A stretch of DNA of 64,000 nt, taken from the NCBI GenBank assembly GCA_021603905.1, contig BQIU01000002.1:62001-126000 (forward strand). The letters are read 5' to 3'. Positions 13,918 to 47,895 of the stretch are shown here, piece by piece. Made by a program: the position numbers and the translations under genes. A model generated the notes under the pieces. The model was not told the DNA's origin. It saw nothing but the letters and a program-made list of their open reading frames with translations, and did not search any database. Origin of the DNA: Nitrospirales bacterium. GTDB taxonomy: Bacteria > Nitrospirota > Nitrospiria > Nitrospirales > UBA8639. Positions within the stretch are counted from its first letter, which is position 1. Each line of letters begins with the position of its first letter.

Positions 13918-13932
13918 AATCTTGAGAAAGCG

Positions 13933-17453: not shown

Positions 17454-17455
17454 GA

Positions 17456-18270: not shown

Positions 18271-18782
18271 GGCATAAGATTTCGCACATCAATGGGTGGA
18301 TCTTCGTTCACAGCCTGTCCCTTGTCTTTTTCTGTGATGGACACGCCAGCCACACGGTAGAAATTATACTCCGGATATTTTCCGACGCCGTTAATGAGCA
18401 AATCTTCTTTTTCATACACAAGATGTGGGCGATGATATTCACTCATTTCAAAATCGGGAGTGAGTTGGATCGCATACGTCGGACAGGCTTCTTCGCAATA
18501 CCCACAGAAAATACAGCGAGAAAAATTAATTCGAAACCACTCCGGATACCGTCGACCAGCGGCATCTTCTGTTGCCTGAAGTGCGATACAATCGACTGGA
18601 CAGACGACAGAACAGAGATGGCAGGCCACGCACCGCTCTTCACCATCTGGATCCCGAGAAAGGATAATTCTTCCTCTCCAACGAGGAGCCAGATAGGGGT
18701 GTTCGTCTGGATATTGCACCGTAATGGGCTTTTTGAATAATCGAAGAAATACGCGCCAGATAGCCTTGATCATGTGTGTCAT
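18267..18782 (-). CDS. nuoI: NADH-quinone oxidoreductase subunit I
   Basis: A 171-residue ferredoxin-like subunit carrying two 4Fe-4S clusters (N6a and N6b): [15 protein letters not shown] near residue 51 and [15 protein letters not shown] near residue 90. It passes electrons towards NuoB. It begins 76 bases after nuoH and overlaps nuoJ. All eight cysteines are present. Confidence 0.93.
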
Positions 18783-18858
18783 ACGAGAGCCTTTCCCAAC
18801 GCTCTGATGGATGGAAGGCCTGTGAGGCTAGCCACCGGGTCACGTGTCAGCATACGCT

Positions 18859-19821
18859 TTAGGTCTCCCCTTGATTCACGAGCATCAGCGCCCCGGTGAC
18901 GAGAAGATTCACAAGTCCCAACGGAAGCAACACTTTCCATCCAAAAGACATGAGTTGATCAAAACGAAGTCTCGGCATGGTTGCGCGTAATAAGATGAAC
19001 ACGGACAGACACGCCATGGTTTTCAGTGAAAACCAAAGCCAAGGCGGAAGCCATGGACCATGCCAACCAGCAAAAAACAAGACCACCATCATGGCAGAAA
19101 TCAGTGTGATACCCACATATTCCCCCACAAAGAACATACCGAACTTCATCCCTGAGTATTCCGTATGATAGCCTGCCACAAGCTCGCTTTCGGCCTCAGG
19201 AATATCAAATGGCAATCGATGCGTTTCGGCCAAACCAGCCATAAAAAATATGAAGAGTCCCAGGATTTGAGGAATACAAAACCAGAGGTCTTGTTGCGCC
19301 TGGACAATAAGACCCAGATTGAACGTGCCCGCCAACATGACAACCCCCATAAGTGAAATGCCCATGAACACTTCATAACTAATCATTTGCGAGGCGGCAC
19401 GAAGTCCTCCCAGCAACGAATATTTGCTATTGGAAGCCCAACCACCCAGTACCAAACTATAGGCACCGAGAGAAGACATAGCCAAGAAAAACAAAATACC
19501 AATGTTGAGATCGGCGATGACAATCGAAGGGGTAAACGGAATCACCACAAACGCAAGTAGCGTCGTGACCATAATTAAAGCCGGAGCCAAAATAAACACA
19601 GGTTTGTCCGCAAAAGGTGGGATCCAATCTTCCTTTGTAAAAATTTTGATCATATCGGCCACAACTTGAAACATTCCGAATGGTCCGACTCGATTAGGCC
19701 CATACCGCTCCTGCCAAAGTCCGAGAAGACGTCGTTCAATCCAAATCAGCAACCCACTGATAGTAAGCACGGAGCTCAGAATCAGAACAATGAAGACATA
19801 CATATGCAAGGTGTGAGTCAT
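18859..19821 (-). CDS. nuoH: NADH-quinone oxidoreductase subunit H
   Basis: A 320-residue, eight-helix subunit that forms much of the quinone chamber. The family motif [20 protein letters not shown] is near the N-terminus, and the acidic loop [19 protein letters not shown] is intact. The start at 19821 (MTHTLH) overlaps the nuoG stop as ATGA; the ten extra residues in the track are the nuoG end. Confidence 0.93.
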
Positions 19822-22538: not shown

Positions 22539-22550
22539 AGGAGCGTTCCA

Positions 22551-23831
22551 TCACGTGACATAGGGACAATGTTGTTCGCGGATGTGTTGGTCAAAGTCCT
22601 CTTTGAAATATTTGAGTCCACTTTTTAATGGTTCCATGGCTCCAGGAGCATGAGCACAAAACGTATGGCCTGGGCCTAAGAAGCGTGTATGTTGATGAAG
22701 GGTTTCAAGATCAGCAACGGTTCCTCTTCCCAGCTCAAGATCCGAGAGCAACCGTTCAGTCCACGGAAGTCCTTCTCGACAAGGAGTGCACCACCCGCAT
22801 GATTCTTGTGCAAAGAAATGTTCGAGATTGTGGATAAATGCGACTGGACAGGTTCGGTCGTCTAGGATAATCATCGTTCCCGTACCCAACCGGCTACCGG
22901 CTTGGGGTACCGACTCAAAATCCATCTCAAGGTCCAAGTGTTGTTCAACTAAAAAGGCCGTCGACGCCCCGCCTGGCAACACTCCACGAAAGCGAAAACC
23001 GTCCTGCATCCCGCCTGCATGTTCTTCGAGTATTTCTCGAAGCGGCGTGCCAATTGGAAGTTCCCACACTCCCGGCCGACGAACCTTTCCACTTACTCCA
23101 TAGAGTTTGGTGCCTCCATCGTTGGCGAATCCTAGTCTTTGATACTCCTCTGCGCCACGAGTGATAATATGAGGCACGTTCGACAGCGTTTCGACATTCT
23201 GAACAATAGTCGGTTTTCCCCACAGCCCACAGGCTTGAGGATAAGGCGGTTTATCTCGAGGAATGACCGGTTTTCCTTCCAACGCGTTGAGTAGGGCGGT
23301 TTCTTCTCCACAAATATAACGCCCAGCGCTTGTGTGAACATGCACCTCGAAGCTGAAATCGGAATTCAGAATGTTCTGGCCGAGGTATCCCTGTTCTTTC
23401 GCTTCGTCTATGGCCTGTTGTAACCGGGTAGCGGCAAGATGATAAGCCCATCGAAGAAAAATGTATCCCACCTGAGCTTGGATCGCATACGCACTCACTA
23501 TCATCCCTTCGATGACGAGATGTGGATGACCTTCCAGCAGGAGTCGATCTTTAAAGCTTCCGGGTTCCATTTCATCGGCATTGGCAACAAGATATTTGGG
23601 AGAAGGTGCGTCATCCCCCATGGGCACGAATCCCCATTTTTTCCCAGTGGGAAACCCCGCCCCTCCCCGCCCACGAAGATTGGAGTCCGTCACGAGTTGC
23701 TGCACATCGTGCGGTGTCATCTCCTGGATCGTCTTGTGTACCGACTCGTATCCACCTTTCCTCGTATATTCAGTCAATGACAACGGGTTACGGTTGAGGT
23801 CGATATGCTGTGTCAGTGGACGTGCTTGCAT
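22551..23831 (-). CDS. nuoF: NADH-quinone oxidoreductase subunit F
   Basis: A 426-residue NADH-binding flavoprotein. The FMN/NADH-binding glycine motif RGRGGAGFPTGKKWGF is near residue 55, the SLBB domain is in the middle, and the 4Fe-4S (N3) cysteines are in ESCGWCTPCREG plus HTFCAHAPG. This is the electron entry point of complex I. Its presence with nuoE and nuoG means this is a full NADH-oxidising enzyme, not the short Nuo without dehydrogenase module. Confidence 0.93.
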   Translation of the reverse strand: MQARPLTQHIDLNRNPLSLTEYTRKGGYESVHKTIQEMTPHDVQQLVTDSNLRGRGGAGFPTGKKWGFVPMGDDAPSPKYLVANADEMEPGSFKDRLLLEGHPHLVIEGMIVSAYAIQAQVGYIFLRWAYHLAATRLQQAIDEAKEQGYLGQNILNSDFSFEVHVHTSAGRYICGEETALLNALEGKPVIPRDKPPYPQACGLWGKPTIVQNVETLSNVPHIITRGAEEYQRLGFANDGGTKLYGVSGKVRRPGVWELPIGTPLREILEEHAGGMQDGFRFRGVLPGGASTAFLVEQHLDLEMDFESVPQAGSRLGTGTMIILDDRTCPVAFIHNLEHFFAQESCGWCTPCREGLPWTERLLSDLELGRGTVADLETLHQHTRFLGPGHTFCAHAPGAMEPLKSGLKYFKEDFDQHIREQHCPYVT

Positions 23832-23900
23832 GATTGTTCTCAGTCTTGAACTTCATGGTGTACAGATGGTTATGAGGATTTGCCTAGATACTTCGAAACT

Positions 23901-24365
23901 TCATTCGAATTGCTCCAAAATCTCATCGATGTTTTCTGGCGTGAGGTTCCCATAGATCTCATGATCAACCATCATGGCTGGAGCTCGGTCACAGGCACCC
24001 AAACACACGATGGGTAAAAGGGTGAAGCGTCCATTCGCACTGGTTTTCCCTAATTCAAGTTGTTGGTGACTTTTGAAATGTGTCTGAAGTTGGGTGCATC
24101 CCATGACCCAACAGCTAATGCTATCGCAGAGAAGAATGACATGACGTCCAACGGGTTTCCGAAAAATAAGATTGTAGAAGGTCGCAACAGCATCCAATTC
24201 CGCCGGAGTCATGTCTAAACAACCCGCGACCGCTTCTAAGTCCTCATCAGAGACCCATCCTTCTCGTTCTTGAACGATTTTCAAAGCCTGAAGACATGCA
24301 GCACGTTTGTGTGGATACTGTCGACTTTCTCGTGCAATCTGGTGTCGCTCTGCCTCAGTTAACAT
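23901..24365 (-). CDS. nuoE: NADH-quinone oxidoreductase subunit E
   Basis: A 154-residue subunit with an N-terminal helical part and a thioredoxin-like domain carrying a 2Fe-2S cluster (N1a). The ligands are in CDSISCWVMGC and CLGACDRAP. It partners NuoF. Gaps of 76 bases to nuoCD and 69 bases to nuoF are the widest inside the first half of the operon. Confidence 0.93.
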   Translation of the reverse strand: MLTEAERHQIARESRQYPHKRAACLQALKIVQEREGWVSDEDLEAVAGCLDMTPAELDAVATFYNLIFRKPVGRHVILLCDSISCWVMGCTQLQTHFKSHQQLELGKTSANGRFTLLPIVCLGACDRAPAMMVDHEIYGNLTPENIDEILEQFE

Positions 24366-24441
24366 TCTGTTTCTCTCTTTACTCTTCTAACATTCGTATG
24401 ACGTCGATGAACGAAGAACCCATTTCAAACTGAAGATGTTG

Positions 24442-26199
24442 TCATCGGTCCACATCCGCAAGCACATAGTCCACACTTCCGAGAATAGCCACCAGATCGG
24501 ACAATAAGAACCCACGAGACATACATGGGACCATCTGAAGGTGTGGAAATGAGGGAGTCCGAATTCGTGCACGATAGGCCCAGGCTTCACCATCGCTAAT
24601 GAGATAATAGCTATTGAGACCTTTGGTGGCTTCAATACCGACACTCACCTCGCCAGGCGGGATGACTGGCCCCCAACTCACACTCAGAAAATGTGCAATC
24701 AATGTTTCGATGTCGACCATCGTCCGTTCTTTCAAGGGAGGCGTAGTGAGCGGATGATCGGCTTTGTACGGGCCCGCGGGCATTCCCTCAAGGCATTGTT
24801 GAATAATACGAAGACTTTGACGCATCTCTTCGACACGAACAATTCCACGGTCATAGCAGTCGCCGCGTGCGGCCACCGGTATCTCAAAATCGAAATGTTC
24901 ATATCCTGAGTAGGGTCTGGCCTTCCGGAAATCCCATTCACAACCTGTCGCACGGAGCCCTGGTCCGGTGATTCCCCATGCAATGGCCTGTTCTTGAGTA
25001 TAATGGCCGATACCTTGAGTTCGAGCCTTAAACAGAGGATTGTGCATCACGAGATCATCGTATTCATCTAACCGTGGTGGGAGATACTTCAGAAAGTTCC
25101 GGATTAAGGTTTCCCACCCTTCGGGTAAATCCTGCGCGACACCACCAATGCGAAACCATCCTGGATGCATGCGGCCGCCGGTGATCGCTTCGACAATCTG
25201 AAAAATGTGTTCTCGATCCGTAAACATGTAAAAAACTGGTGATATCTGTCCGACATCCTGAGCAAATGTGCCATACCACACCAAATGACTTGCAATTCGA
25301 AACAATTCAGCCATCATGACCCGAATCACTTTCACGCGATCCGGAACCTCGATGCCTGCAAGTTTTTCCACGGCTAACACATAGGGCAATTCATTCATGA
25401 CCCCGCCAAGATAATCAATGCGATCGGTGTATGGAATGTAGGTATGCCATGTTTGTCGTTCAGCCATCTTTTCAGCACCACGATGATGAAATCCAATGTC
25501 GGGTACGATATCCACAATTTCTTCGCCATCAAGTTGAAGAACCAGACGAAGAATGCCGTGGGTACCTGTGTGGGCAGGACCGAGATTCAAAAACATGAAA
25601 TCTGAGTTTTTTCGAACCTGCGTCATGCCCCAATCTTCGGGATTAAATTGCAGGGCACGCTCTTCATCTTGTTGTTTTTCCACCGGAAGGCGAAATTCGC
25701 CCATCTCCGTGGCTCGTGCAGGATGGTCTTTTCGTAACGGGTGTCCAGTCCACGTCGAAGGAAGTAAGATTCGTCGCATGTGCGGATGGTTGACAAAATA
25801 GATACCAAATAAATCCCAGATTTCACGTTCGTACCAATTGGCAGATGGCCAGATATCAATGATGGAGGGAAGTGAGGGAGCGTCTCCGAGCAAGGCCACC
25901 TTTAGGCGAAGGTCTTGATTGCGGTCAAAGGAAAGGACATGATACACCACGGTAAAATCGCTCGGTTGTTGATCGACACGATGGGTTCGGACTCGTTCAT
26001 CGATGGCCGTCAGGTCATACAGCATGGCATAAGGCTTACTCACCTCATATTGTAAAAATTGAAGTATTGAACGAATCTGATGTGGAGGCACCCACACCGT
26101 CGGGACTTCATCGATTGTCGGTTGCCACCACAATTCCGTAGGCTCAAACTGACGTTGCAGTTCTTCGATGATGTCTGGTGTCTGTATAGACCTCATCAT
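24442..26199 (-). CDS. nuoCD: NADH-quinone oxidoreductase subunits C and D, fused
   Basis: A 585-residue fusion. NuoC occupies about residues 1-175 (ending in the [12 protein letters not shown] region) and NuoD about residues 190-585 ([37 protein letters not shown]-terminal [17 protein letters not shown]). NuoD holds the quinone-site histidine in the HTGTHG loop. The C-D fusion is found in several bacterial groups. Only four bases separate the nuoB stop and this start. Either of two adjacent ATGs could be used. Confidence 0.93.
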
Positions 26200-26202
26200 G
26201 GC

Positions 26203-26874
26203 TTAACGGGGTTCAGAACACCGATCCCCTTCAACGGTAGAATTCATTGAACGTAGACGATCGATTTGTTGACGTTCACTTCGCTTGAGGTCCCGGCGAA
26301 TCGGCATGATGGGCTTGTGAACGTCTTGTGACCCAATGGTCCAACTCAATGGCCGTCTTTCTGAGCCGACAGCCTTTTGAAGGACCAGCAATCCTTCCAT
26401 AAATGTGTGTGGTGGCGGCGGACATCCTGGCAGATACACATCCACAGGCAAAAATTTATCCACTCCCTGGACGACGGAATACACATCGTACATACCTCCT
26501 GAATTTGCACAGGAGCCCATCGATATGACCCATCGGGGTTCCATCATTTGCTCGTACAAGCGTTGAATGATCGGAGCCATTTTCATAAATACCGTACCCG
26601 CAATGACCAGGACATCAGCTTCTCGTGGGCTCCCACGGACGACCTCAGACCCAAAGCGTGCGATATCGTATCGACTGGTGAGACTCGTCGCCATCTCGAT
26701 GTAACAACAAGATAGTCCGAAATTCATGGGCCAGAGCGAATTTTTTCTCCCCCATGCAAGAAGATCTTGAAGACGTGCCAGGAACACGGAGCGTTTCACG
26801 GCTTCATCGAATGATCCATCTCCTTGTTCAGCCACCTGGGGTACAGATCGAGCATCACGTAACTGCCAATACAT
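26203..26874 (-). CDS. nuoB: NADH-quinone oxidoreductase subunit B
   Basis: A 223-residue subunit carrying the N2 4Fe-4S cluster next to the quinone site. The ligands are the tandem cysteines in [11 protein letters not shown] plus MGSCANSGG and LPGCPPPP. The start at 26874 (MYWQLRD) is one base after the nuoA stop; the longer ORF runs into nuoA. The C-terminal tail of about 50 residues ([16 protein letters not shown]) is longer than minimal NuoB. Confidence 0.92.
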
Positions 26875-26875
26875 G

Positions 26876-27274
26876 TTAGTCTCCCGTTGACTGTCTTGAA
26901 AGATATTGTTGTGAACGTCCCCAATCGAGCGCACCTATTCGCCAAAGATAGAACAGCGCGATGAAAAGAATCGTGATAAACACCGTCATTTCCCAAAACC
27001 CAATCCACCCAACTTCTCGGACGGCGACAGCCCACGCGTAGATAAAGACGGCTTCGAGATCAAAAATGACGAACAGCATCGCCAGCAAATAAAATTGGAC
27101 GGGAACCCGCAAATGACCGGTCCCCGTTGGAGGAATACCTGATTCGTAGGGTTCCTGTGTTGCGCGTTCGCGATGATGTTCTCCCAGAATGTACGAAAGC
27201 CCAAGCATACCCCCCACAATAATCACTACCGTTCCGGCATAGAGACCAAGCGGCCAAAGATCATTTAGGGGCAT
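26876..27274 (-). CDS. nuoA: NADH-quinone oxidoreductase subunit A
   Basis: A 132-residue, three-helix subunit and the first gene of the operon. The loop [38 protein letters not shown] is typical, with conserved acidic residues in the helix after it. The ATG at 27274 follows a GGAG; a GTG at 27301 is possible. A CTAGGG-type element ends about 70 bases upstream, making the whole complex I operon a likely member of that regulon. Confidence 0.92.
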
Positions 27275-35267: not shown

Positions 35268-36416
35268 ATGAGAAAGCGATTACTACCTGTATACCTAATT
35301 GTTATGTGCGCGCTTCTTAACCCTGTATCACAGTCCTTTGCAAATGAATCCGATGATTCTCTGAGGGGGGCCTATAAGGCCAGTGAGTTGATAGGGAAAA
35401 ATGTGAAAACAATCGAAGAGAAGGATCTTGGGGAAATCCAAGACATTGTCATTGGTAACGAAGGAGAAGTTGGCTATGCGGTGCTTTCATTCGGAGGAGT
35501 CCTCGGTATCGGCGATAAGCTCTTTGCGGTCCCGTGGACCTCATTGGCTCATAGTCCTGATGGGGAGTATCTCACGTTAAATGTCGAAGAGAAAAAATTA
35601 GAGAATGCTCCTGGCTTTAATAAAGACGATTGGCCCGATATGCAAGATGAACAATGGAAATTAGTGATATTAGAATTTTACCAAGCCCCGCAGACGAATC
35701 AAAAAGAGTCGGTCAAAAATTCTAGGTCACTTCCCGACCATACGAATCATGCACATTTTTCCGCATCGCAAGGGTACCTTGTTGGAGGTGAAGGGAAAAC
35801 CGGTAACAGCGTTCGATATGACGGCTCAATGATTTGGGAAGGTCCTAGTTATGCCACAGTAGATGTTGACCCCAAAGCCAATGAAGGAGTGGTAATGGGG
35901 ATTGTTCGTACCCATGATCATACCTACACCATCCTGTTTACAGAATTTAACGGGACAGAATCCTTCATGGATGGTGGGATCGCCACAGATTTAACGTTAC
36001 ATGGGACATCAGGGCAAGGCGCTCCAATATTCCCCAAATTATCAACTCCTGTTGCTGGATGGGGAAAAGCCACGGTGTTTAAAAATGATGATGTCCTGTA
36101 TAAGCAATATCCAGCTCACTTCATGTTAACTGAAGCGGGACGGGATGAGAAAACCCACCAGGTCCAATTTCTTGAGCCTGATCGGCTGAAGAACTTTATC
36201 ACCGCCTCAAGCTCAGAGACGTCGAGTGAAAACATGCAAGAGATCAAAGCGGATATTCACAAGACAGAAGATTCCGTGAATCCTCGCACCTTGCAATTGC
36301 ATATCGTGGCCCATTCCAACGATCAAGATGAGGAAAACATCCCCCCCTATGACAATTTCATTCATTTCATGTGGGATAAGATCACATGGGAGAATGACAA
36401 AGAAAAGAGTGAATAA
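35268..36416 (+). CDS. Secreted PRC-barrel protein with an unrecognised C-terminal region
   Basis: A 382-residue protein with a signal peptide (residues 1-25, cut probably after SFA). A PRC-barrel domain spans about 36-118 (LIGKNVKTIEEKDLGEIQDIVIG; YAVLSFGGVLGIGDKLFAVPW; NAPGFNKDDWPDM). The remaining 240 residues, with GGIATDLTLHGTSGQGAPIFPKL and FIHFMWDKI near the end, are not recognised. The PRC part is a close paralogue of the 120-residue protein at 56753. PRC barrels bind protein or RNA partners or respond to envelope conditions. A GAGGTCACG ribosome site precedes the ATG. Confidence 0.75.
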   Translation: MRKRLLPVYLIVMCALLNPVSQSFANESDDSLRGAYKASELIGKNVKTIEEKDLGEIQDIVIGNEGEVGYAVLSFGGVLGIGDKLFAVPWTSLAHSPDGEYLTLNVEEKKLENAPGFNKDDWPDMQDEQWKLVILEFYQAPQTNQKESVKNSRSLPDHTNHAHFSASQGYLVGGEGKTGNSVRYDGSMIWEGPSYATVDVDPKANEGVVMGIVRTHDHTYTILFTEFNGTESFMDGGIATDLTLHGTSGQGAPIFPKLSTPVAGWGKATVFKNDDVLYKQYPAHFMLTEAGRDEKTHQVQFLEPDRLKNFITASSSETSSENMQEIKADIHKTEDSVNPRTLQLHIVAHSNDQDEENIPPYDNFIHFMWDKITWENDKEKSE

Positions 36417-37047: not shown

Positions 37048-37578
37048 GTGACTGAAGGAGGACAATTGATTCAATGGACAGGCATAGTGGTGGTTGGAGT
37101 CGGGATTGGATTAGCGTTGATAGTGGGGACCCTGTATTCCACGGGAAGTGCCGATCTTGCTGTCCACGATCAGCAACCGATTACGTTCAGCCACCAACGT
37201 CATGCCGGACAGTTAGGTGTGGCCTGTCAGTTTTGCCATCGTTTTGCCTCAGTCAGTCCTATTGCGGGGGTACCTCCCGTCTCAATTTGTATGACATGCC
37301 ATCAGTCCATGCCCACTCAACAGCCAGACCTCAAACGGCTCACCCTTTACTGGAATGAACAACGTCCGATACCGTGGATTCGTCTTCAGCGTCTTCCAGA
37401 TCATGTCTATTTTACGCACGAAATGCATCTTTTCGCAGGAGTGACGTGCCAGGATTGTCATGGGATAGTTGAAAAGATGATGGGCACGCCTCGCGCCTCT
37501 ACATTTGAGATGGGGTGGTGTCTCACCTGTCATCAGCAACAGCACGCCTCGACCGATTGTTGGACATGCCACAAATAG
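37048..37578 (+). CDS. Pentaheme c-type cytochrome, ActA-like subunit
   Basis: A 176-residue protein with one N-terminal membrane anchor (IVVVGVGIGLALIVGTLYS) and five CXXCH heme sites: CQFCH, CMTCH, CQDCH, CLTCH and CWTCH. Several are preceded by distal histidines (FSHQRHAG, FTHEMHLFAG), as in class III/cytochrome c7-type and ActA subunits. It would sit on the periplasmic side and relay electrons within an alternative-complex-III-like (ACIII) enzyme. First gene of an eight- or nine-gene cluster; the next gene starts 7 bases later. The start is GTG, and a downstream start is possible. Confidence 0.85.
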   Translation: MTEGGQLIQWTGIVVVGVGIGLALIVGTLYSTGSADLAVHDQQPITFSHQRHAGQLGVACQFCHRFASVSPIAGVPPVSICMTCHQSMPTQQPDLKRLTLYWNEQRPIPWIRLQRLPDHVYFTHEMHLFAGVTCQDCHGIVEKMMGTPRASTFEMGWCLTCHQQQHASTDCWTCHK

Positions 37579-37585
37579 GTGAACG

Positions 37586-39781
37586 ATGGATATGAATCGC
37601 CGAACACTCCTCAAAGTCCTCAGCCTGACCGCAGCAGGATCTGCTCTTCCCGGTTGTGAACGAGAGGTCCATAATTTGGTGCCATATCTGCTTCCTGATG
37701 AACAGATCGTGCCTGGTGTCGCAACCTGGTACGCCACGACATGTCAGGAATGTGAAGCTGGTTGCGGCATCCTTGCGCGCGTCATGGAGGGAAGGGTCAA
37801 GAAACTCGAAGGAAATCCAGCGCATCCCATTAGCCAGGGCAAACTGTGCGCTCGAGGTCAGGCTGGTCTTCAGGGTGTCTATAATCCTGATCGAGTGAAG
37901 GGTCCGCTCAGAAGGGAAGGAGAAAGAGGGAAAGGTCGCTGGCAGGAGATTTCTTGGGAAGAGGGCTTGAGTACTTGGCTCGAACAGTTACACGCACACC
38001 ATGGCTCCAATTGTCTGATTTCACCACCCGTCAATGGGTCGCTGGCCACATTGTTCCAAAAAGTAACGGATCACCTGGGGGGCAGAATGATGATTCAGGA
38101 GAACCGCGAAATACACACCTTGCGCACAGCCAATGTACTGAGTGTTGGGAAAGACACTCTCCCCTATTATGACATTGGAGAGGCCGATTTCATTTTATCC
38201 TTCGGGACGCCTTTTCTGGAACATTGGATTTCTCCCGTCGCCTACGGAAGAGCCTATGGGCAATTTCGTCAAGGCCGTCCTATGGTTCGGGGACGATTTA
38301 TTCAAGTCGAACCACGACTTTCACTGACGGCCGCCAATGCGGATCGGTGGTTACCGATTACTCCTGGAACAGAAGGTCTGCTTGCCATCGGAATTGGGGC
38401 TGTCCTCATTGAACAAAAGTTGACTCGAATGTCGGGTCCGTTACCCCAGTCGCATAAAGATCTTTTTTCTATGTTTTCACTCGAGACAATTGCCATTGAG
38501 ACCGATCTCTCAGCACAGACCATTCGAGAGCTCGCCGAAGAAGTCGCTTCAGCAGACGCGCCACTTATTCTCGGAGGCGGTCCAGCTGCCAGTCACACTA
38601 ACAGCACGATCAATGCCATTCTGTTCTTCGCTCTTAATTTTTTATTAGGACGGGTGGATCAACCTGGTGGGGTACAATGGACGTCATCAACACAATTTCC
38701 GATTAAGACAAAAAAGCACGATCGAGCCAGCGATCGCGTCCTTTCCGAGTTGACGGAGGATTTCTCCCAGAATCGTTATCAACTTTTGCAATTGTATCGT
38801 GTGAATCCTCTCTTTACCCTTCCTCCCTCGACACAGATTCAGCAACTGTTTTCTCAAGCTAAATTTATCGTGAGTTTCAATTCATTTATTGATGATTCCA
38901 CCTCCATGGCAGATCTGATTCTTCCGGTTCATGACCCCTTGGAATCCTGGAGCGACGTCATTTCCAGTGAGCATAGCGCTCAACCAACTCTCAGTTTCTC
39001 TCAACCCGTGATTCGTCCCCTGTATGACACACGCGACATCGGAGACGTATGGCTGTATGCAGCTCGACAACTCGGAGAACCGCAAACGTTGGAATTTCCT
39101 TGGACGTCATTTACAGAGATGATCAAACAAACGTGGTCACCGTATCTTCAGGCACAAGAACCGAACACCTCACCCCAAGACATCTGGCCCCATACGCTAC
39201 AACGAGGCGGATATTGGCCTGATCGCTATGTGGTTTCAGGAACCACCCTACCGCCTGAGGTCATCCCATATGAGTCTCCACAATTTTTAGGAAATTCTGA
39301 TGAGTATCCTTTTTATTTCTATCCGTTCCCTTCATTGGCCCTGCATGATGGTCGAGGCGCCAATCGTCCATGGCTTCAAGAACTTCCCGATCCGCTGACC
39401 ACACGAATGTGGGGCAGTTGGGTGGAAATCAATCCTCTTACTGCCAAACAACTCCATATACAGCATGGTGATATCGCACGAGTCAGCTCTTCGTATGGGT
39501 CTGTCGATGCCCCCGTGGTGTACGTCCCTGGACTTCGTCCAGATCTTTTGGCAATGCCGATTGGACAAGGTCATCGTACCTATGGACGATATGCCAAGGA
39601 TCGAGGATGTAATCCGTTGACACTGATTGGTCCGGCGTTTGATTCGCTCTCTGGCAGCGTAGCGACGGGAGGCACTCGTGTGAACATCACACGGCTATCT
39701 TCTGGATCAGAGCTGGCTCTGTTAGAACAGTCTGGGCAGACGCCCTTTCTTTCCCATCTTCACCAGACAGGAGGACTCTAA
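37586..39781 (+). CDS. Molybdopterin-oxidoreductase-like subunit (ActB1-like)
   Basis: A 731-residue protein of the complex-iron-sulphur-molybdoenzyme catalytic-subunit family. It has a twin-arginine and lipobox-type export signal (NRRTLLKVLSLTAAGSALPGC). The 4Fe-4S motif follows, with CQECEAGCG and the fourth cysteine in GKLCARGQAG. Middle domains (SFGTPFLEHWISPVAYG; LGGGPAASH) and a C-terminal barrel (WVEINPLTAKQLHIQHGDIARVSS) complete it. In ACIII the homologous B1 domain is not thought to be a molybdenum enzyme. Here the N-terminal cluster cysteines are kept and B1 is separate from B2. Its stop overlaps the next ATG. Confidence 0.83.
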   Translation: MDMNRRTLLKVLSLTAAGSALPGCEREVHNLVPYLLPDEQIVPGVATWYATTCQECEAGCGILARVMEGRVKKLEGNPAHPISQGKLCARGQAGLQGVYNPDRVKGPLRREGERGKGRWQEISWEEGLSTWLEQLHAHHGSNCLISPPVNGSLATLFQKVTDHLGGRMMIQENREIHTLRTANVLSVGKDTLPYYDIGEADFILSFGTPFLEHWISPVAYGRAYGQFRQGRPMVRGRFIQVEPRLSLTAANADRWLPITPGTEGLLAIGIGAVLIEQKLTRMSGPLPQSHKDLFSMFSLETIAIETDLSAQTIRELAEEVASADAPLILGGGPAASHTNSTINAILFFALNFLLGRVDQPGGVQWTSSTQFPIKTKKHDRASDRVLSELTEDFSQNRYQLLQLYRVNPLFTLPPSTQIQQLFSQAKFIVSFNSFIDDSTSMADLILPVHDPLESWSDVISSEHSAQPTLSFSQPVIRPLYDTRDIGDVWLYAARQLGEPQTLEFPWTSFTEMIKQTWSPYLQAQEPNTSPQDIWPHTLQRGGYWPDRYVVSGTTLPPEVIPYESPQFLGNSDEYPFYFYPFPSLALHDGRGANRPWLQELPDPLTTRMWGSWVEINPLTAKQLHIQHGDIARVSSSYGSVDAPVVYVPGLRPDLLAMPIGQGHRTYGRYAKDRGCNPLTLIGPAFDSLSGSVATGGTRVNITRLSSGSELALLEQSGQTPFLSHLHQTGGL

Positions 39782-40509
39782 TGAAAGATGTCTCGACACA
39801 ATCCGAACCTTCTTCATCCGCTTCAGGACCCTATCAATGGCACATGGTTGTCGATCTTGATCGATGCACAGGATGCGAGGCGTGTGTGGTTGCCTGTCAT
39901 GCAGAAAATAATATTCGCATATCCGGAGAAGCAGAGGCAGCACAAGGTCGTGCCATTAATTGGATACGAATCGAACGATATTGGGAAGGTGAATATCCTG
40001 ATGTGAAAGTGAAATTTCTTCCAGTCTTATGCCAGCAATGTGACGAGGCCCCGTGCGAGCCAGTCTGTCCGGTCTATGCTTCGTACCACACGCCCGACGG
40101 TCTCAATGCTCAGGTTTATAACCGATGTGTTGGAGTTCGATACTGTGGAAATAATTGTCCTTATGGTGCTCGTCAGTTTAATTGGATCGAACCACATTGG
40201 GATGAACCCTTACACGAACAATTAAACCCTGAGGTTTCTGTACGCCCTGGTGGTGTCATGGAAAAATGTACGTTTTGCGTCCAAAGAATTCGAGCGGCTA
40301 AAGAAATAGCCACAAAGGAAGAACGGCGAGTACGTGATGGAGACGTGACCCCTGCCTGCGTGCAATCCTGTCCCTCTTCCGCCTTGGTCTTTGGAGACAA
40401 ACAGGACCCCAACAGCCACGTGTCGCGTTTATCCAAGAATGATCGTGGCTTTCATCTTCTTGAGTCGTTAGGCACGAAACCCTCAGTGACGTATCTCCGT
40501 CGCCTGTGA
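39781..40509 (+). CDS. 4Fe-4S ferredoxin subunit (ActB2-like)
   Basis: A 242-residue NrfC/HybA-type iron-sulphur protein. Four cysteine groups are present: CTGCEACVVAC; CQQCDEAPCEPVC; CVGVRYCGNNC; and CTFCVQRIR with CVQSC. Together they suit four clusters. CVGVRYCGNNCPYGAR is typical of the ACIII/Psr-type B subunits. It has no signal of its own and is probably exported with ActB1. It overlaps its neighbours on both sides, implying translational coupling. Confidence 0.85.
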   Translation: MKDVSTQSEPSSSASGPYQWHMVVDLDRCTGCEACVVACHAENNIRISGEAEAAQGRAINWIRIERYWEGEYPDVKVKFLPVLCQQCDEAPCEPVCPVYASYHTPDGLNAQVYNRCVGVRYCGNNCPYGARQFNWIEPHWDEPLHEQLNPEVSVRPGGVMEKCTFCVQRIRAAKEIATKEERRVRDGDVTPACVQSCPSSALVFGDKQDPNSHVSRLSKNDRGFHLLESLGTKPSVTYLRRL

Positions 40510-41849
40510 TCATGAAACCGGAAAAGTCAAATTTGGAGGCAAGCACAGATATCAATCGAGATCTTCTCACTCCCCTTGAGCAGACGGATTGGACCTATTA
40601 TCTTTTTATTGCCGTGCTCGCGAGTGCCGTGCTCGTTGGAGCTGGGGCATGGACGTATCAAATTCAAAACGGAATAGGACAAACCAATCTTCATCGACCG
40701 ATATTTTGGGGTTCTTATATCGGGTCTTTTGTATATTGGATCGGCGTCAGCCATTCCGGAACCTTTATTTCCGGTGTATTACGTCTGACCAACGCTGAAT
40801 GGCGTCGGCCAGTCACACGAATGGCTGAACTCATGACCATCATTTCTGTCATAATTGCAGCCCTGTTCGTGTTTGTGCACCTGGGAAGAGTATGGCTATT
40901 TTACTATCTGATTCCTTATCCGAACCAACGAGAAATATGGCCAAATTTTCGATCACCACTCATGTGGGATGCCACGGCGATTTTCACCTATGCGACGGCG
41001 AGTAGTATCTATCTTTATTTACCCTTAATTCCAGATTTTGCCTTGCTTCGCGAACGAATTCATGGTTGGAGAAAAAATGTGTATCGGGTCTTAGCGATGG
41101 GATGGCATGGGTCCCAACGTCAATGGCAGAACTTAGAAACGGCGATTAAAATTATCACACCCCTCATTGTCATGGTGATGATTTCGGTCCATTCAATTGT
41201 TGGATGGGATTTTGGAGTCTCACTCGTTCCCGGTTGGCATTCCACGATTTTTGCTCCGTACTTTGTCGTTGGCGCCGTGCATTCCGGCTTAGCGATGGTC
41301 ATCATCGGACTGTACGTTCTTCGAAAGATCTATCGGTTACACGAGTACGTACGAGTTGAGCATTTTGAAAAACTGGCGAAACTCTTAGTGGTGACGACAC
41401 TGTTATTGGCCTATCTCTATTTTGCCGAACAGCTCACCATCTGGTATGGCAATATCCCTGACCATCGATCGGTCCAACAATCGCTTTTGACCGGGACGTT
41501 TGCCTTCCCTTTTTGGACGATGATGCTTTGTGTGTATCTCGTGCCATTATGTACGCTCACCATACCTCAATTTCGACGCTGGCCTCTTGGGTTAATGATC
41601 GTGGGGGTCTTGATCAATATTGGCATGTACATCGAACGGCTCCTCATCATGGTGCCTCCACTCGTTCATCCTCGTTTATCGTTTCAGTGGAGCCATTATT
41701 TTCCCTCTGTTGTGGAATTGACCATTCTGGTTGGCGCATTGTCTCTCGCCGTGCTGTTGTATTGCCTGGCGATTAAATTCGTTCCAGTGATTTCCATTTG
41801 GGAAGAAAAAATTGGGAGGATACATGCCGCACCCCATTCCTCATCGTGA
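40506..41849 (+). CDS. NrfD/ActC-like quinone-interacting membrane subunit
   Basis: A 447-residue polytopic protein of the NrfD/PsrC family with about ten helices. The first helix region follows LEQTDWTYYLFIAVLASAVLVGAGAWTYQIQNG. FWGSYIGSFVYWIGVSHSGTFISGVLRL lies next, the region of the quinone site in ActC. It would oxidise or reduce quinone and pass electrons to the FeS subunit. It overlaps actB2 (ATGA) and the DUF3341 gene. Confidence 0.85.
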   Translation: MIMKPEKSNLEASTDINRDLLTPLEQTDWTYYLFIAVLASAVLVGAGAWTYQIQNGIGQTNLHRPIFWGSYIGSFVYWIGVSHSGTFISGVLRLTNAEWRRPVTRMAELMTIISVIIAALFVFVHLGRVWLFYYLIPYPNQREIWPNFRSPLMWDATAIFTYATASSIYLYLPLIPDFALLRERIHGWRKNVYRVLAMGWHGSQRQWQNLETAIKIITPLIVMVMISVHSIVGWDFGVSLVPGWHSTIFAPYFVVGAVHSGLAMVIIGLYVLRKIYRLHEYVRVEHFEKLAKLLVVTTLLLAYLYFAEQLTIWYGNIPDHRSVQQSLLTGTFAFPFWTMMLCVYLVPLCTLTIPQFRRWPLGLMIVGVLINIGMYIERLLIMVPPLVHPRLSFQWSHYFPSVVELTILVGALSLAVLLYCLAIKFVPVISIWEEKIGRIHAAPHSSS

Positions 41850-42399
41850 CCCAACGATGCTCTTTGCGTTATTCAAGTCTGAAACGACGCTTCCACCTCT
41901 CATCGAGCAATTGCGCCGACTCGGACTCTCTGATGATCGAATGGACATCCTGTCCTCTAGACCAATTCAGCCAGCTCTCCTTCGATCATCAAACCGGTTG
42001 CCCTTGCATCGCATGACGATTTTTGCCGGCGTTCTAGGGCTGGCCTCGGGTCTTGTTCTGGCTGGAGGGACAGCCATGCTCTATCCGATCCAGACAGGAG
42101 CACAACCCATCGTCGCATTTCCAGTCCTCGGCATTATTGCATTTGAAATCATGATGCTCGGGGCCATTGTCTGCACATTTCTGATCATGGTCAAACGCAT
42201 TGTGGGTATTCATCAATCCTCAAAGTTCACACATGATGCTCGAATCGATGACGGAATGATTGGGGTGTCTATTCAGATATTACCATCACAAACCAGCGTG
42301 TCTCAGGTTCATCATCTGCTCTCGCAGGCCGGTGCCCATGAAATTCAAATATTGATGCCTTCCAACAATTTCAGCGTGGTTCGAGAGGTGGGTGCATGA
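41824..42399 (+). CDS. DUF3341 membrane protein (ActD-like)
   Basis: A protein of about 191 residues with two central membrane helices (MTIFAGVLGLASGLVLAGGTAMLYPI and PVLGIIAFEIMMLGAIVCTFLIMV). A soluble N-terminal part (LFALFKSETTLPPLIEQLRRLGL) comes before them and a short beta-rich tail (ISIQILPSQTSVSQVHHLLSQAGAHEI-like) after. This is the ActD/DUF3341 layout. The ATG at 41824 is preferred since GGGAGGA lies just before it; the TTG at 41812 is also open. Confidence 0.8.
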   Translation: MPHPIPHRDPTMLFALFKSETTLPPLIEQLRRLGLSDDRMDILSSRPIQPALLRSSNRLPLHRMTIFAGVLGLASGLVLAGGTAMLYPIQTGAQPIVAFPVLGIIAFEIMMLGAIVCTFLIMVKRIVGIHQSSKFTHDARIDDGMIGVSIQILPSQTSVSQVHHLLSQAGAHEIQILMPSNNFSVVREVGA

Positions 42400-42887
42400 A
42401 TCGGCTTCCGGTATTCATATTGATGACGTGCTGCTGGCTTGGAAGGGTGGGAGGACTCGTGGGAACCGTCGTGTTGATGGCGTGCTCTCAGGAAATGGAA
42501 TCACAACCTTCTTTTTCTTACCAGGAAGCCCCGCGAAGACAGTCTCCTCCAGATAGCATCGCACGATCGTCGGCAACGTCTGGCGCTCAATTGCAGCCGC
42601 CGCAGGATGAACAGGGAAGTCGTCTTTTTGCGGTGAATTGCCGCCACTGTCATGGATCTCATGGCGATGGTGATGGACCTGTCGCAGGTTATCTTCAGCA
42701 ACTCCCCGTCAATCTTCATGCCCCCTCTGTTCAAAGCAAATCGCCGGAAGAACTCTTTTTGGTAATCACTCAAGGACTGGATGTCATGCCTGCGTTTAAA
42801 CCGTATTTATCGTCACAGGAACGATGGGCATTGGTCAATTTTGTCCATTCTTTGAATCATCAAACGACGGGGCAGCCGACGCCATAA
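42396..42887 (+). CDS. Monoheme cytochrome c lipoprotein (ActE-like)
   Basis: A 163-residue protein with a lipoprotein signal (VVLMAC, cysteine near residue 30). After a flexible proline-rich linker comes a class I cytochrome c domain with heme site CRHCH, the GDGDGPVAGYLQ loop and a methionine ligand in MPAF. It is equivalent to ActE and would be anchored at the periplasmic face of the complex as electron exit or entry. The start overlaps the DUF3341 stop (ATGA). Confidence 0.83.
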   Translation: MNRLPVFILMTCCWLGRVGGLVGTVVLMACSQEMESQPSFSYQEAPRRQSPPDSIARSSATSGAQLQPPQDEQGSRLFAVNCRHCHGSHGDGDGPVAGYLQQLPVNLHAPSVQSKSPEELFLVITQGLDVMPAFKPYLSSQERWALVNFVHSLNHQTTGQPTP

Positions 42888-42937
42888 TGCGATCTTTGAA
42901 GCACCTTCATGATTCTTCTAAGGAATTGTTCTAAACG

Positions 42938-44119
42938 ATGTCAGATTTTCACCTGGCCATTGGAATTTTCAGCCTAGCCCACATTGCCATTGCCGGATTA
43001 GGGGTAGGGTTTATGGTTTTAACGCCTTGTGCGGAATTTCTTGGACGTACATATTCAAGCTTTACTCAACTTGCTCATTCGTTAACCAAATTTACCGTGG
43101 TGACGTATACCGTCAGCATTGTCCTGGCTGTCTTCATGCTTGAATTATTTATAGGATTGTATCCATTGACAAATTCATGGATTTTCAATCAATTCCGCAT
43201 CCCTATTGCTATCGCGCTTTTCGCGTTTTTCCTCCAACTCCTATGTCTGTATGCCTACTATCATTTCTGGGATGTCATTCGTGCCAAAAGCGTATCTCTT
43301 CACATTTTCCTTATTGGGTTCGCCGTTGGGTTCATTCTTATTTGGGTTGGAATCCTGGATGGAATTGGATCATTTATGCTCACACCCGTGACAGAAGAAG
43401 GCGGATGGGCCAAGCTCATGAATCCAACGTGGCTGCCGCTCGTTATCCATCGATTTTTCGGCAACCTTGTCATGGCAGGCTATGTCTTAGCTGGCTATGC
43501 GGCCTGGCAGTTGGGAAGACATGCAGATTCAAATCATACACCATATCTGGAGACGATGTATAAGACCGGATTCACTGTTGGTCTGTGCACGTTAGTTGTT
43601 CAACCGGCAACCGGCATAATATATGCCTTGAAAATTCGGGAGAATCAGCCGGAGTTATCTCAACAGCTCTTGCAGGGAATACCACTGGGCTTGGTCGTAG
43701 TACAGGTGGGTCTCCTGGCCTTCTTGTATTGGGGGAGTTATGTCATCCTCCAACACAGCCACCGTTCTTCAACATCTCCACGCAGGTCTCTCCTCCTATT
43801 CAGTTTCTCCCTCATAGGGTTGATCGCCTGTTCGGCATACCCATTTCTCAGACAATTGCTCACGATGCTGTTGACGATGATCTTGTTGTGGAAAATGTCT
43901 GTCACGGTTCCAACTCTGTGGGCCAAGCCGATACCATTTCTTACTTTTGGACGGTCGGTTCGGTATATCACGATCGGCCTTGGGATCGCTTCGATTATCC
44001 TCTATCTCTCCATGGGAACCATGCGAGAACTCAGTCGCGGCTCTGACACGGTCTATGGCGTGCTGAAGGAACATCAAGAAATTGAAGCACTACCACAGCA
44101 GCTTCATGAGGGATTATGA
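42938..44119 (+). CDS. Cytochrome bd-like membrane protein, first copy
   Basis: A 393-residue protein with about nine helices, distantly like cytochrome bd subunit I. Histidines fitting heme ligands are seen in LAHIAIAGLGVGF (residue 15) and VIHRFFGNLVMAGYVLAG. The Q-loop and GRQPW motif are absent. In the helix where CydA has two conserved glutamates this copy has IPIAIALFAFFLQLLC, so both appear lost. It probably binds b hemes but may not reduce oxygen. It lies 50 bases after the cytochrome c gene and overlaps the second bd-like gene. Confidence 0.75.
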   Translation: MSDFHLAIGIFSLAHIAIAGLGVGFMVLTPCAEFLGRTYSSFTQLAHSLTKFTVVTYTVSIVLAVFMLELFIGLYPLTNSWIFNQFRIPIAIALFAFFLQLLCLYAYYHFWDVIRAKSVSLHIFLIGFAVGFILIWVGILDGIGSFMLTPVTEEGGWAKLMNPTWLPLVIHRFFGNLVMAGYVLAGYAAWQLGRHADSNHTPYLETMYKTGFTVGLCTLVVQPATGIIYALKIRENQPELSQQLLQGIPLGLVVVQVGLLAFLYWGSYVILQHSHRSSTSPRRSLLLFSFSLIGLIACSAYPFLRQLLTMLLTMILLWKMSVTVPTLWAKPIPFLTFGRSVRYITIGLGIASIILYLSMGTMRELSRGSDTVYGVLKEHQEIEALPQQLHEGL

Positions 44120-45447
44120 CGCCAGAATCGTTGGAATTATCCATATTCACGGGACGACTGGTCATCGCCGTTACGGCCTTAACCCATAGTCTGTTGGCGA
44201 CGTTTATTGTTGGAGCGTCTCTTATCGGTGCCGTCACGGCAACGTTGCATATCCTGACAGGTCGCACTTGGTATCGGCGCTTGGCCCATATGATCGCCTT
44301 TGCGCTCGTGTTGACGACCGCCACGATATCATTCTTTGGTGTCCTCTTCGTCATCGCGCTGAATGTATTCTGGCCTCGTTTTTGGCATCAGTTGTTCCAG
44401 GTGATGTTTTGGCTGTTTCTTCTCGAAGCGGCTTTGTTTTTATGTGAAGCGTTTTTTGCCTATGCCTGGTTTTATCTTTGGCAATGGGGAGAATCAGGAT
44501 GGCGACGACTGGTCCACCTCTCCTTTATCTGGATAGCCGCTGGCTCATCGTTAGCTGCCATGTTTCTCATTGATGTGACCGCATCCTACATGGTTACGCC
44601 TGTCCCTCTAGACTCTGGATGGGAAAATATTTTCAATCCGACAATGATTCACCTTGATCTGCACCGGTGGTTTGGCAACCTCACCTGGGCTGGATTTGCT
44701 ATGAGTGGAATCTGTGCCATTGGGCTCTATCGTGCTCAGAACTCTCAGGATTATGCCTTCTATTTGAAAGCCGGAACCTATTGTTTTGCCATTGGATTTG
44801 GAGCACTCTTGCTCATGCCGATTATCGGTTATCAGTACATGCTTCATCTTCGCTATGGGCAGCCTCAGGCCTTTTATGCGATTATGTTGGGTGAGCGTTC
44901 TTGGTTATTTGGTCTGATCGGATTGACCTATGGTCTGTTGATCCTTTTGGGATCCTTCTATCTCACACTCTTGATTCGTAAGACTGTTCCGTCATCGTCT
45001 TCGTTCTTTACGTATATCGTCATGTCCCTTTTCACCATCATTCTGGCCACTGCGGTATTAGCGTTGCCCTACAACCTTTCTCATCATCCACTTCTCCAAG
45101 AATTGGTGACTCAGCGCACATTTTCACTCGGGAAGATGCAGCCCTACAAATATTATGCTCTTGCAGCATTGGTCATATTTGGTCTACTGAACGCGATCTA
45201 TGCAATTCGTTTCTGCACGACTTCCTTTTCAGAAATCGTGGAACACGCACTACGCCAACGCTCACGGTTGCTGCCTTCCCTGTTATTGACACTCGCAAGC
45301 TTGACCATTGTGGTTTTTTTGGCCATGGGGTGGGTTCGGGAGTCGGCACGAGCCGTCAATGGATATTTAATTTATGGGGCGATAACCATCAATGATGAAC
45401 AGCCCACCTATGGACTTGACGATAACAGCAGTAAGATTAATGAATGA
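44116..45447 (+). CDS. Cytochrome bd-like membrane protein, second copy
   Basis: A 443-residue protein with about ten helices, a paralogue of the previous one. A histidine is present in VTALTHSLLATFIVG near the N-terminus and another in LHRWFGNLTWAG. Unlike the first copy, this one keeps two glutamates in the matching helix (FLLEAALFLCEAFFAYAW), close to the CydA pattern. The Q-loop is absent here too. It overlaps the first copy (ATGA), so the two are probably made in equal amounts as a heterodimer. Roles may differ: this copy is the better candidate for the active site. Confidence 0.75.
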   Translation: MTPESLELSIFTGRLVIAVTALTHSLLATFIVGASLIGAVTATLHILTGRTWYRRLAHMIAFALVLTTATISFFGVLFVIALNVFWPRFWHQLFQVMFWLFLLEAALFLCEAFFAYAWFYLWQWGESGWRRLVHLSFIWIAAGSSLAAMFLIDVTASYMVTPVPLDSGWENIFNPTMIHLDLHRWFGNLTWAGFAMSGICAIGLYRAQNSQDYAFYLKAGTYCFAIGFGALLLMPIIGYQYMLHLRYGQPQAFYAIMLGERSWLFGLIGLTYGLLILLGSFYLTLLIRKTVPSSSSFFTYIVMSLFTIILATAVLALPYNLSHHPLLQELVTQRTFSLGKMQPYKYYALAALVIFGLLNAIYAIRFCTTSFSEIVEHALRQRSRLLPSLLLTLASLTIVVFLAMGWVRESARAVNGYLIYGAITINDEQPTYGLDDNSSKINE

Positions 45448-45494
45448 AAATAGTCTCGGAGAGCAGTAAAGAAATTTATTAAAAGGAGTGAACG

Positions 45495-45848
45495 ATGAAC
45501 GTGAACTGTTGGATAAAGAACCTTTGGCTCGCAAGTGTGACCGTCGTTCTTGTGTTGGGTATGTGGGAGATTGGCCTCCACGGGTCCACAGCAAAAGCTC
45601 AGGATTCCTCGTCAACCAAGCAACAAGAAAAAGTCGTTTCAGGAGTACTGAAGAAATGGGATCTCAAAGAACAACAAGGAATGATTGTGACAGATTTAGG
45701 GGAGCCGGTCTTTTTTGATATCCCACAGGTCAATAGGATGACAAAGCTCAGTCAAGGACAACAGGTCACGGCAAAATTCGATTTACAAGGTAATCTGATC
45801 ACCATTATCGAAACGCCGGTCCCTGAGTTAAAACATCCACTTCATTAG
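45495..45848 (+). CDS. Small secreted protein at the end of the act/bd-like cluster
   Basis: A 117-residue protein with a signal peptide ending near AKAQ (residue 35). A short beta-rich domain follows (VVSGVLKKWDLKEQQGMIVTDLGEPVFFDIPQ; GQQVTAKFDLQGNLITII), which resembles small OB-fold or cold-shock-like barrels, though I cannot name it. A strong AAAAGGAG ribosome site is present. It is 47 bases after the second bd-like gene and probably in the same transcript. Function unknown. Confidence 0.65.
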   Translation: MNVNCWIKNLWLASVTVVLVLGMWEIGLHGSTAKAQDSSSTKQQEKVVSGVLKKWDLKEQQGMIVTDLGEPVFFDIPQVNRMTKLSQGQQVTAKFDLQGNLITIIETPVPELKHPLH

Positions 45849-46164
45849 CACGTAAATATACTTAGCACATGGTCAGTAGGCCTGTATTATGAAGTCAATG
45901 AGGAGTCATCATCTGCTCCACCTTGAGACTGACCGATAGATGGCTTTAACGGTCGTTGATTCATTTTGACAACCTGTATTCGTCTTACAATACAACAAAA
46001 TATTAGAGCGATCGAAACAAAAACTTCAATGATTAGATGAATATTTACATCCACACGCACCAATATTGTCTAGGGGGAGACCCATAGACTTTTTGCTTGC
46101 GTCACTGCATAATGGCTTAGGTATCATTCCATAATATTTGATTTACTATGAATTCAAGGTTCAG
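45849..46164. other. Intergenic region upstream of a LuxR-type regulator
   Basis: About 315 bases without a gene. It holds a symmetric variant of the CTAGGG-type element at 46070. Confidence 0.5.
46070..46087 (+). promoter_or_regulatory. CTAGGG-type element (18-bp symmetric variant) upstream of a response regulator
   Basis: CTAGGGGGAGACCCATAG, 78 bases before the regulator ATG. It is two bases longer than the others and close to a palindrome, as might fit autoregulation. Confidence 0.45.
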
Positions 46165-46827
46165 ATGAATAAAGCTCGAGTTCTTTTAGCCGAAGACCAC
46201 GTACTGGTCAGTGAAGGTTTGACGAAATTGCTGGAAAAAGACTTTACCTTGGTGGGGACAGTTGTTGACGGCCGTGCGTTAATTCAAGCAGTCAAAACAC
46301 TCACTCCAGATATTGCCGTTATTGATATTTCATTACCATTATTAAACGGGCTGGAAGCCGCACGACAGATAAAAAAGTACGAGCCTCAAACCAAGATAGT
46401 CTTCTTAACCATGCATGCTGAAGATGAATTTATCAAAGAGGCCTTTAATACTGGCGGATCTGGATATATTCTAAAGAGTTCGGCAACCGCAGAACTGGTG
46501 TTTGCCCTCAAGGAAGTTCATCGAGGCAATACTTATATTTCACCCTCAATCGCGAAAACCGTGTTGTCACAAAATATCAATACCAATGCGGTGCCTTCGA
46601 AAAATCATGAGACAAACAGGAATAACCTCACCCCCAGACAGATGGAAGTACTCCAATTAATCGCTGAAGGAAAATCTAATAAAGATATTGCCGTGATATT
46701 GAACTTAGCCGTGAAGACCGTGGAATTTCATAAATCGCGAATCATGTTGGAGCTTGGTCTCAAAACCACATCAGAACTGACTAAGTACGCTATTTCAAAT
46801 GGCATAATTTCCGTTGATATAAGCTGA
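46165..46827 (+). CDS. NarL/FixJ-type (LuxR-HTH) response regulator
   Basis: A 220-residue regulator. The receiver domain (residues 1-120) has the acidic pair in LLAEDH, phospho-acceptor aspartate in IAVIDISLPLLNG, and the lysine in YILKSS. The LuxR-type HTH (about 155-215) is LTPRQMEVLQLIAEGKSNKDIAVILNLAVKTVEFHKSRIM. The start is ATG 46165; nine upstream codons from a TTG are not needed. It faces a close paralogue at 46907. No kinase is adjacent on the same strand, but a kinase operon starts 2 kb downstream. Confidence 0.9.
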   Translation: MNKARVLLAEDHVLVSEGLTKLLEKDFTLVGTVVDGRALIQAVKTLTPDIAVIDISLPLLNGLEAARQIKKYEPQTKIVFLTMHAEDEFIKEAFNTGGSGYILKSSATAELVFALKEVHRGNTYISPSIAKTVLSQNINTNAVPSKNHETNRNNLTPRQMEVLQLIAEGKSNKDIAVILNLAVKTVEFHKSRIMLELGLKTTSELTKYAISNGIISVDIS

Positions 46828-46906: not shown

Positions 46907-47566
46907 TTACGATGTAGAGGCAATGCCTTTCATGATGGCGTATTTGGTCAGATCCGCTTTAGTTTTTAGGCCTAAAGCTTGGATAATTTGTGTTTTATGA
47001 TACGCGACGGTACTGAGAGATATCTTGAGTAGATCGGCAATATCTTTCGATGATAAACCTTGTGCCACCAACCTCAAAACTTCTTCCTGTCTTTCGGTCA
47101 AACGGCCAGAGAGTTCTGTGCCAGGCATACCATCATTGCGAGCGAGTACCTGGTCTCGAACTTCTTCTGAAATCAAGGGAGAGATGTATGTTTTATGTGA
47201 GAGAACATCTTGAATCGCTGCTAACAATTCATTACCTGCAGTTTGTTTGGGAATATACCCATCCCCCCCACTTCGAAACGCTTCCATAACATATGTGGGT
47301 TCTAAATGCATCGAAACAAAAATAATTTTCAAAGTTGGGAACGCCTTCTTCAAACTTCGTGCGATATCATATCCATTGCCATCGGGCATTGAAATATCTA
47401 ATAACATCACATCAGGCTTCTTCTGCTGAACTTCACTCACTAAATGCGTTGTCTCCTGGGCTAGCCCAACCACGTCATGATAGGGCTCAAGCAGTGACTT
47501 ACAACTCTCTAAAACGAGAATATGATCGTCAACAAGAAATATTCGTCCTCGTTTATCAATAGCCAT
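46907..47566 (-). CDS. NarL/FixJ-type (LuxR-HTH) response regulator, paralogue
   Basis: A 219-residue regulator with receiver motifs FLVDDH, VMLLDISMPDGNG and YIPKQT, and a LuxR HTH (LTERQEEVLRLVAQGLSSKDIADLLKISLSTVAYHKTQII). It shares most HTH positions, and the ending LGLKTKADLTKYAI, with the regulator at 46165, so the two arose by duplication. They converge with 79 bases between the stops. The start at 47566 (MAIDKRGR) is the first residue of the conserved part. Confidence 0.9.
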   Translation of the reverse strand: MAIDKRGRIFLVDDHILVLESCKSLLEPYHDVVGLAQETTHLVSEVQQKKPDVMLLDISMPDGNGYDIARSLKKAFPTLKIIFVSMHLEPTYVMEAFRSGGDGYIPKQTAGNELLAAIQDVLSHKTYISPLISEEVRDQVLARNDGMPGTELSGRLTERQEEVLRLVAQGLSSKDIADLLKISLSTVAYHKTQIIQALGLKTKADLTKYAIMKGIASTS

Positions 47567-47895
47567 GAAACAGCAATAAGACCGTGTGAACGTAGCTTCC
47601 AATCAGGCATTCAACAACTCCTTCGTCGCTAAAACCTGGCTGAAGGTACAACATTTTTTCCCTGTAATAGCTGGTTAGTCGTTACATTTCAAACATTCAT
47701 GCACTGACCCAATACTTAAAAGAAGTGACATTGATGTTGCCTACAACTTTTTACATGGCAGGGAACAACAACCTCCTAGCTTCATTTTTTATTACACATT
47801 ACATCGACCTCGACCCCTATTACCATTTTTGCTTATCGGCACATACTTCTCATGCGGTGAGGGTTAAGAATGTCAGTTCTACTTTTGCAGAATTT
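47567..47895. other. Intergenic region, no gene recognised
   Basis: About 330 bases. The 69-residue ORF at 47725 (+) is rejected because it overlaps the DUF3309 gene and has no ribosome site. Confidence 0.5.

Follow-up and report, generated by a model that had tools for sequence, protein, structure and literature searches.

Within the 64,000-nucleotide stretch of Nitrospirales DNA analysed here (the window), genes resembling those of alternative complex III (ACIII) run into genes for two proteins resembling cytochrome bd, and the question raised by the locus is what this pair does there. The sequence-only reading of the window had the bd-like proteins take the place of ActF, a second NrfD-type subunit, in one quinol-oxidising complex, where they would serve as a built-in heme b module and not as a separate oxidase. 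Our analysis points to a different division of labour: the locus likely encodes a quinol:O2 electron path of two linked modules, an ActF-less ACIII and a CydAA'-like pair, and the bd-like pair, to judge from its residues, probably passes ACIII electrons to oxygen.

The arrangement itself is an already known system. Kop et al. 2025 (PMC12342949) describe in nitrite-oxidising Nitrospirales an actAB1B2CDE cluster with a split B and without ActF or ActG, followed directly downstream by CydAA' (OR-N5), and report ACIII in 47 genomes, nearly all with the CydAA' pair; compared with that cluster, our locus has the same gene set and no difference was found. An ACIII module was also reported in N. marina by Bayer et al. 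(PMC8115632). What we add is a heme-copper oxidase counterpart in a related locus (L049), an uneven retention of CydA residues in bd1 and bd2, and complete act-bd linkage in an independent genome set.

Organisation of the locus

The eight-gene system, actA to bd2, spans window positions 37048-45447 on the forward (+) strand. It opens with actA (37048..37578), encoding a membrane-anchored pentaheme cytochrome c, and continues with actB1 (37586..39781; molybdopterin-oxidoreductase-like subunit), actB2 (39781..40509; separate FeS-cluster protein), actC (40506..41849; NrfD-family, predicted quinol-oxidising membrane subunit), actD (41812..42399; DUF3341/ActD) and actE (42396..42887; monoheme cytochrome c lipoprotein), before the two CydA-superfamily genes bd1 (42938..44119; CydA'-like) and bd2 (44116..45447). 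Together with a small secreted protein (45495-45848, +), these make up the nine reading frames described earlier, each present in its expected place and order. The earlier remark that most of the first six genes overlap by ATGA-type junctions is roughly right: B1 and B2 share 1 base, B2 and C 4 bases (GTGA), D and E 4 bases (ATGA), and bd1 and bd2 likewise 4 bases (ATGA). It does not extend to actA and actB1, which lie 7 nt apart, and the C/D junction varies with the start chosen for actD, for which ATG 41824 or 41857 are candidates besides 41812. Longer gaps separate actE from bd1 (50 nt) and bd2 from the small secreted protein (47 nt). Promoter and terminator scans of the cluster returned sites no more numerous than in shuffled sequence.

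The small secreted protein was considered as a ninth member and rejected, having neither a homologue in the related loci examined nor a Pfam match; as far as these comparisons reach, it is unconserved and outside the system. A relative's MAG (L009) has a different gene at that position after bd2. On the other side of the cluster, part of a secreted protein at 35268-36416 (+) is 60% identical to a relative encoded just upstream of actA in loci L035 and L036, and it may be a conserved neighbour of the act genes. Some 10 kb upstream of these, on the opposite strand, lies a complex I operon (12424-26934, -) with NuoL/M/N-type, NuoH, NuoG, NuoF and fused NuoC/D proteins by Pfam. Downstream are two convergent response-regulator-like reading frames, 46138-46827 (+) and 46907-47602 (-), both with a receiver-like N-terminus and a helix-turn-helix-like C-terminus by eye.

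An alternative complex III module without ActF

ActA carries five CXXCH motifs and matches subunit A of ACIII (8k9e_A, 6f0k_A, 6btm_A). B1, which Pfam places among molybdopterin-oxidoreductase-like proteins, and B2 both match ActB chains, so ActB is split into two genes here, B2 being the counterpart of the C-terminal part of the fused ActB (258 bits to 6f0k_B residues 796-1025). At residue 53, in its N-terminal part, B1 has a 4-Cys FeS motif that is conserved in relatives; in B2, one cluster motif is, by eye, short of a Cys (RCVGVRYCGNNCPYG), in keeping with a [3Fe-4S] cluster. The membrane subunit C scores 311 bits against the solved ActC of R. marinus (6f0k_C) and 60 bits against the best ActF. 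D scores 67.7 bits against Pfam ActD (PF11821; cut-off 25.7) and weakly matches 8k9e_D, while ActE, with a single heme motif (CRHCH) and an N-terminus that is lipobox-like by eye, matches PF13442, 6btm_E and 6f0k_E. In several genomes of family f2 (L037-L044), ActD and ActE are apparently fused into one reading frame of ~340 residues.

Sousa et al. (PMC5928083) named the charged quinol-site residues of R. marinus ActC. All three, H139, D169 and D253, are conserved here as H125, D155 and D235. The half-channel residues are mostly kept as well: a change of type is seen at E338 alone (here H320), and D197 has become E183. The subunit set of a multiheme c ActA, ActB as B1+B2, ActC, ActD and ActE is thus present, each with a match to a solved ACIII subunit or to Pfam ActD. 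By these homologies the six proteins are a true ACIII-type module, in agreement with the earlier reading.

Menaquinone reductase Qrc was a further candidate, since it also has one NrfD-type subunit and since the best NCBIfam matches of A, B1 and B2 are QrcA, QrcB and QrcC. We rejected membership: all scores fall below the equivalog cut-offs (bits/cut-off: QrcA 92/180, QrcB 294/440, QrcC 253/400, QrcD 36/570), C matches ActC by a wide margin and, unlike in Qrc, ActD and ActE are present.

The absence of ActF, also noted earlier, holds well beyond the window. Searching the whole source genome with a relative's ActF returned ActC itself as the sole match, and equivalent whole-genome searches found no ActF in 14 other carriers of the act genes, several of them single-contig assemblies. 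We therefore file the locus as the published ActF-less variant and not as classical ACIII.

The position after actE

What finds no support is the claim that the bd pair occupies the place of ActF. In L049, a related locus from another lineage, an ActF-less actAB1B2CDE cluster is followed by SCO1, COX1, COX3 and COX2, and in L048 ActF is likewise absent and neither oxidase adjoins actE. Because these two ActF-less loci have no bd pair, loss of ActF is not tied to its presence, and because a heme-copper oxidase stands at the same position in L049, the bd pair is more aptly seen as the occupant of the downstream-oxidase position. Oxidase genes often lie downstream of act genes, as noted in PMC12342949 and PMC5928083. 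An ActF-like gene is present in L050, L051 and L056, and on another contig in G175, the genome of L052.

The fold of the pair leads to the same conclusion. Both proteins pass the PF01654 cut-off of 26.2 bits (bd1 46.8, bd2 54.0), and the best PDB matches of their structural models in Foldseek are CydA chains (E 5e-8 for bd2, 1e-8 for bd1), ActC matching at E about 0.1 only, which places the two proteins in the cytochrome bd (CydA) superfamily; on these folds we rejected an NrfD-like replacement. No NCBIfam model matches either protein. The bd2 model is only moderately confident (pLDDT 76, pTM 0.80). Superposed globally, the models fit poorly (large rmsd) and thus speak for the fold and not for the geometry.

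CydA residues in bd1 and bd2

Alignment to E. coli CydA reveals that bd2 H24, E104, E111 and H183 correspond to H19, E99, E107 and H186, and that all four are kept in 16/16 bd2 sequences. In bd1, the H19 and H186 equivalents are kept, and the Glu99 and Glu107 positions hold Ala/Gly and mostly Gln. In the other bd-like paralogs of the source genome, Tyr stands where CydA has Glu99. In their C-terminal half, the bd-like proteins are too diverged from E. coli CydA for placing the Met393 and Glu445 ligands. Since bd2 keeps the four CydA residues, the pair itself is the likely oxidase, with bd2 as the probable O2-reducing subunit, which the notion of a heme b module in place of a separate oxidase leaves out of account.

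Neither protein has the Q-loop, the stretch with K252 and E257 in E. coli being deleted, and the pair therefore lacks the signature of a canonical quinol-oxidising cytochrome bd (qOR). Archaeal CydAA' also pairs two CydA paralogs, as seen here, and oxidises quinol; bd1-bd2 differs from it in having no Q-loop. We read bd1 and bd2 as a CydAA'-like pair, and the label OR-N5, a clade of Murali et al. 2021, would follow the wording of Kop et al. for the same gene position.

Linkage of the act and bd genes

In a survey of the phylum, 396 genomes were searched for act and bd proteins. A close ActC (at least 64% identity) was found in 15 genomes including the source, and in 15/15 of these the act genes are followed by bd1 and bd2 in the same order; in L009, the order is unchanged with bd2 62% identical. 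Full-length bd2 was found in 16 genomes (at least 726 bits; next match 152). The 16th, G339, carries the pair without a detected ActC, but is no counterexample: its 3.7-kb contig starts inside actE and continues into bd1-bd2, so the cut explains the missing ActC. Consequently, all 16 pairs adjoin act genes, and none at an unrelated locus was found in the 396 genomes. Pairs at unrelated loci had been named as refuting the earlier reading, and on this point the survey favours it. In relatives without act genes (n=8, three of them congeneric), the only bd paralogs are distant ones (~23-28%). The act-bd gene order is no chance arrangement. The bd-linked ActC and ActB1 cluster together in both gene trees, and pairwise distances of B1 and C correlate with those of bd1 and bd2 (r 0.76-0.88, a value without species-tree control).

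Genomic context of the source organism

The source assembly comprises 4.7 Mb in 203 contigs and is about 91% complete. No COX1 family protein or heme-copper oxidase was found in it, and at this completeness the missing match is no proof of absence. The genome also encodes canonical CydAB and another five bd-like proteins, so bd1-bd2 is not its sole candidate oxidase. Short N-terminal matches to the NxrA-containing enzyme family lie at the ends of contigs C80, C130, C154 and C178, which suggests several near-identical nxrA copies broken by assembly; multiple copies would fit a nitrite oxidiser. Contig C130 carries a bd-like gene in addition. At locus L057 (31-3842), the gene before canonical cydAB encodes a multicopper-oxidase-like protein that carries CXXCH at its C-terminus and looks NirK-like by eye.

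A proposed path from quinol to oxygen

In the path we favour, ActC would oxidise quinol in its periplasmic pocket, and electrons would move, by homology to solved ACIII, from ActC to the [3Fe-4S] cluster of ActB2, the ActA hemes and the ActE heme. The bd1-bd2 pair, having no quinol site of its own, would then take electrons from ActE or ActA, and bd2 would reduce O2 at putative CydA-type hemes. The direction of flow is presumed, as is ActE as the donor, and ActC alone would translocate protons. The solved complexes of R. marinus and F. johnsoniae (6F0K, 6BTM), which work with caa3/aa3, resemble our locus in subunits A to E, in the ActC quinol site and in having an oxidase associated with the complex, here by gene position. 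In contrast to them, our locus has a split ActB, no ActF and an oxidase of the bd superfamily instead of a heme-copper one. In R. marinus, ACIII and caa3 form a supercomplex in which ActE faces the oxidase (PMC5928083). In F. johnsoniae, ACIII is the sole electron source for aa3 and ActE is dispensable for electron transfer to it (PMC8552683), so the donor to the bd pair could be ActA. A bd-like partner has a parallel in freshwater Manganitrophaceae, where Ca. Manganitrophus TO_3/TO_4 combine bd-like proteins with complex III or ACIII-like components, and where an interaction of these complexes with the quinone pool has been proposed (PMC9040806).

How tightly the two modules are joined is a separate matter. 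Docking into one complex is something we would put between rather doubtful and evenly balanced. Its strictest form, one obligate quinol:O2 oxidoreductase in which the bd heterodimer sits on the vacant ActF face of ActC and is fed by ActE/ActA with no soluble carrier, strikes us as on the unlikely side. The 50-nt gap between actE and bd1 counts against our favoured explanation. A looser alternative keeps the same electron path minus the dedicated hand-over: separate, co-transcribed enzymes, with ACIII reducing soluble cytochrome c and the bd pair oxidising that pool, including nitrite-derived electrons. The acceptors of R. marinus ACIII include soluble cytochrome c and HiPIP (PMC5928083), OR-N bd proteins have been proposed as cytochrome c oxidases (PMC10839748), and the source genome holds several bd paralogs. 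However, the full-length pair never occurs apart from act genes in the surveyed genomes and its distances track theirs, subject to the missing species-tree control, and we regard this alternative as a real but minority possibility.

The replacement of ActF by an acceptor module without oxidase activity draws on the missing ActF, on the constant adjacency of the pair and on the idea that the pair could dock on the vacant face of ActC, but it has to contend with the ActF-less L049 and L048, the CydA-like folds and the retention in bd2 of the tested CydA residues, including both Glu. We consider it improbable. Still less probable is that the module runs in reverse, with high-potential electrons and membrane potential reducing quinone for CO2 fixation while the bd pair forms a side branch. 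Nitrite oxidisers do depend on reverse electron transport, and for Nitrospirales two copies of canonical complex III have been postulated to serve the forward and the reverse direction (PMC10579370), but a dedicated O2-reductase-like pair suits forward flow.

If the two linked modules do work as one enzyme, nitrite oxidisers without heme-copper oxidases would gain a dedicated quinol oxidase, in which energy would be conserved via ActC and oxygen reduced at a bd-type site. With ActF missing and the proton-path residues of ActC kept, such an enzyme would also offer a natural test of the role of ActF.
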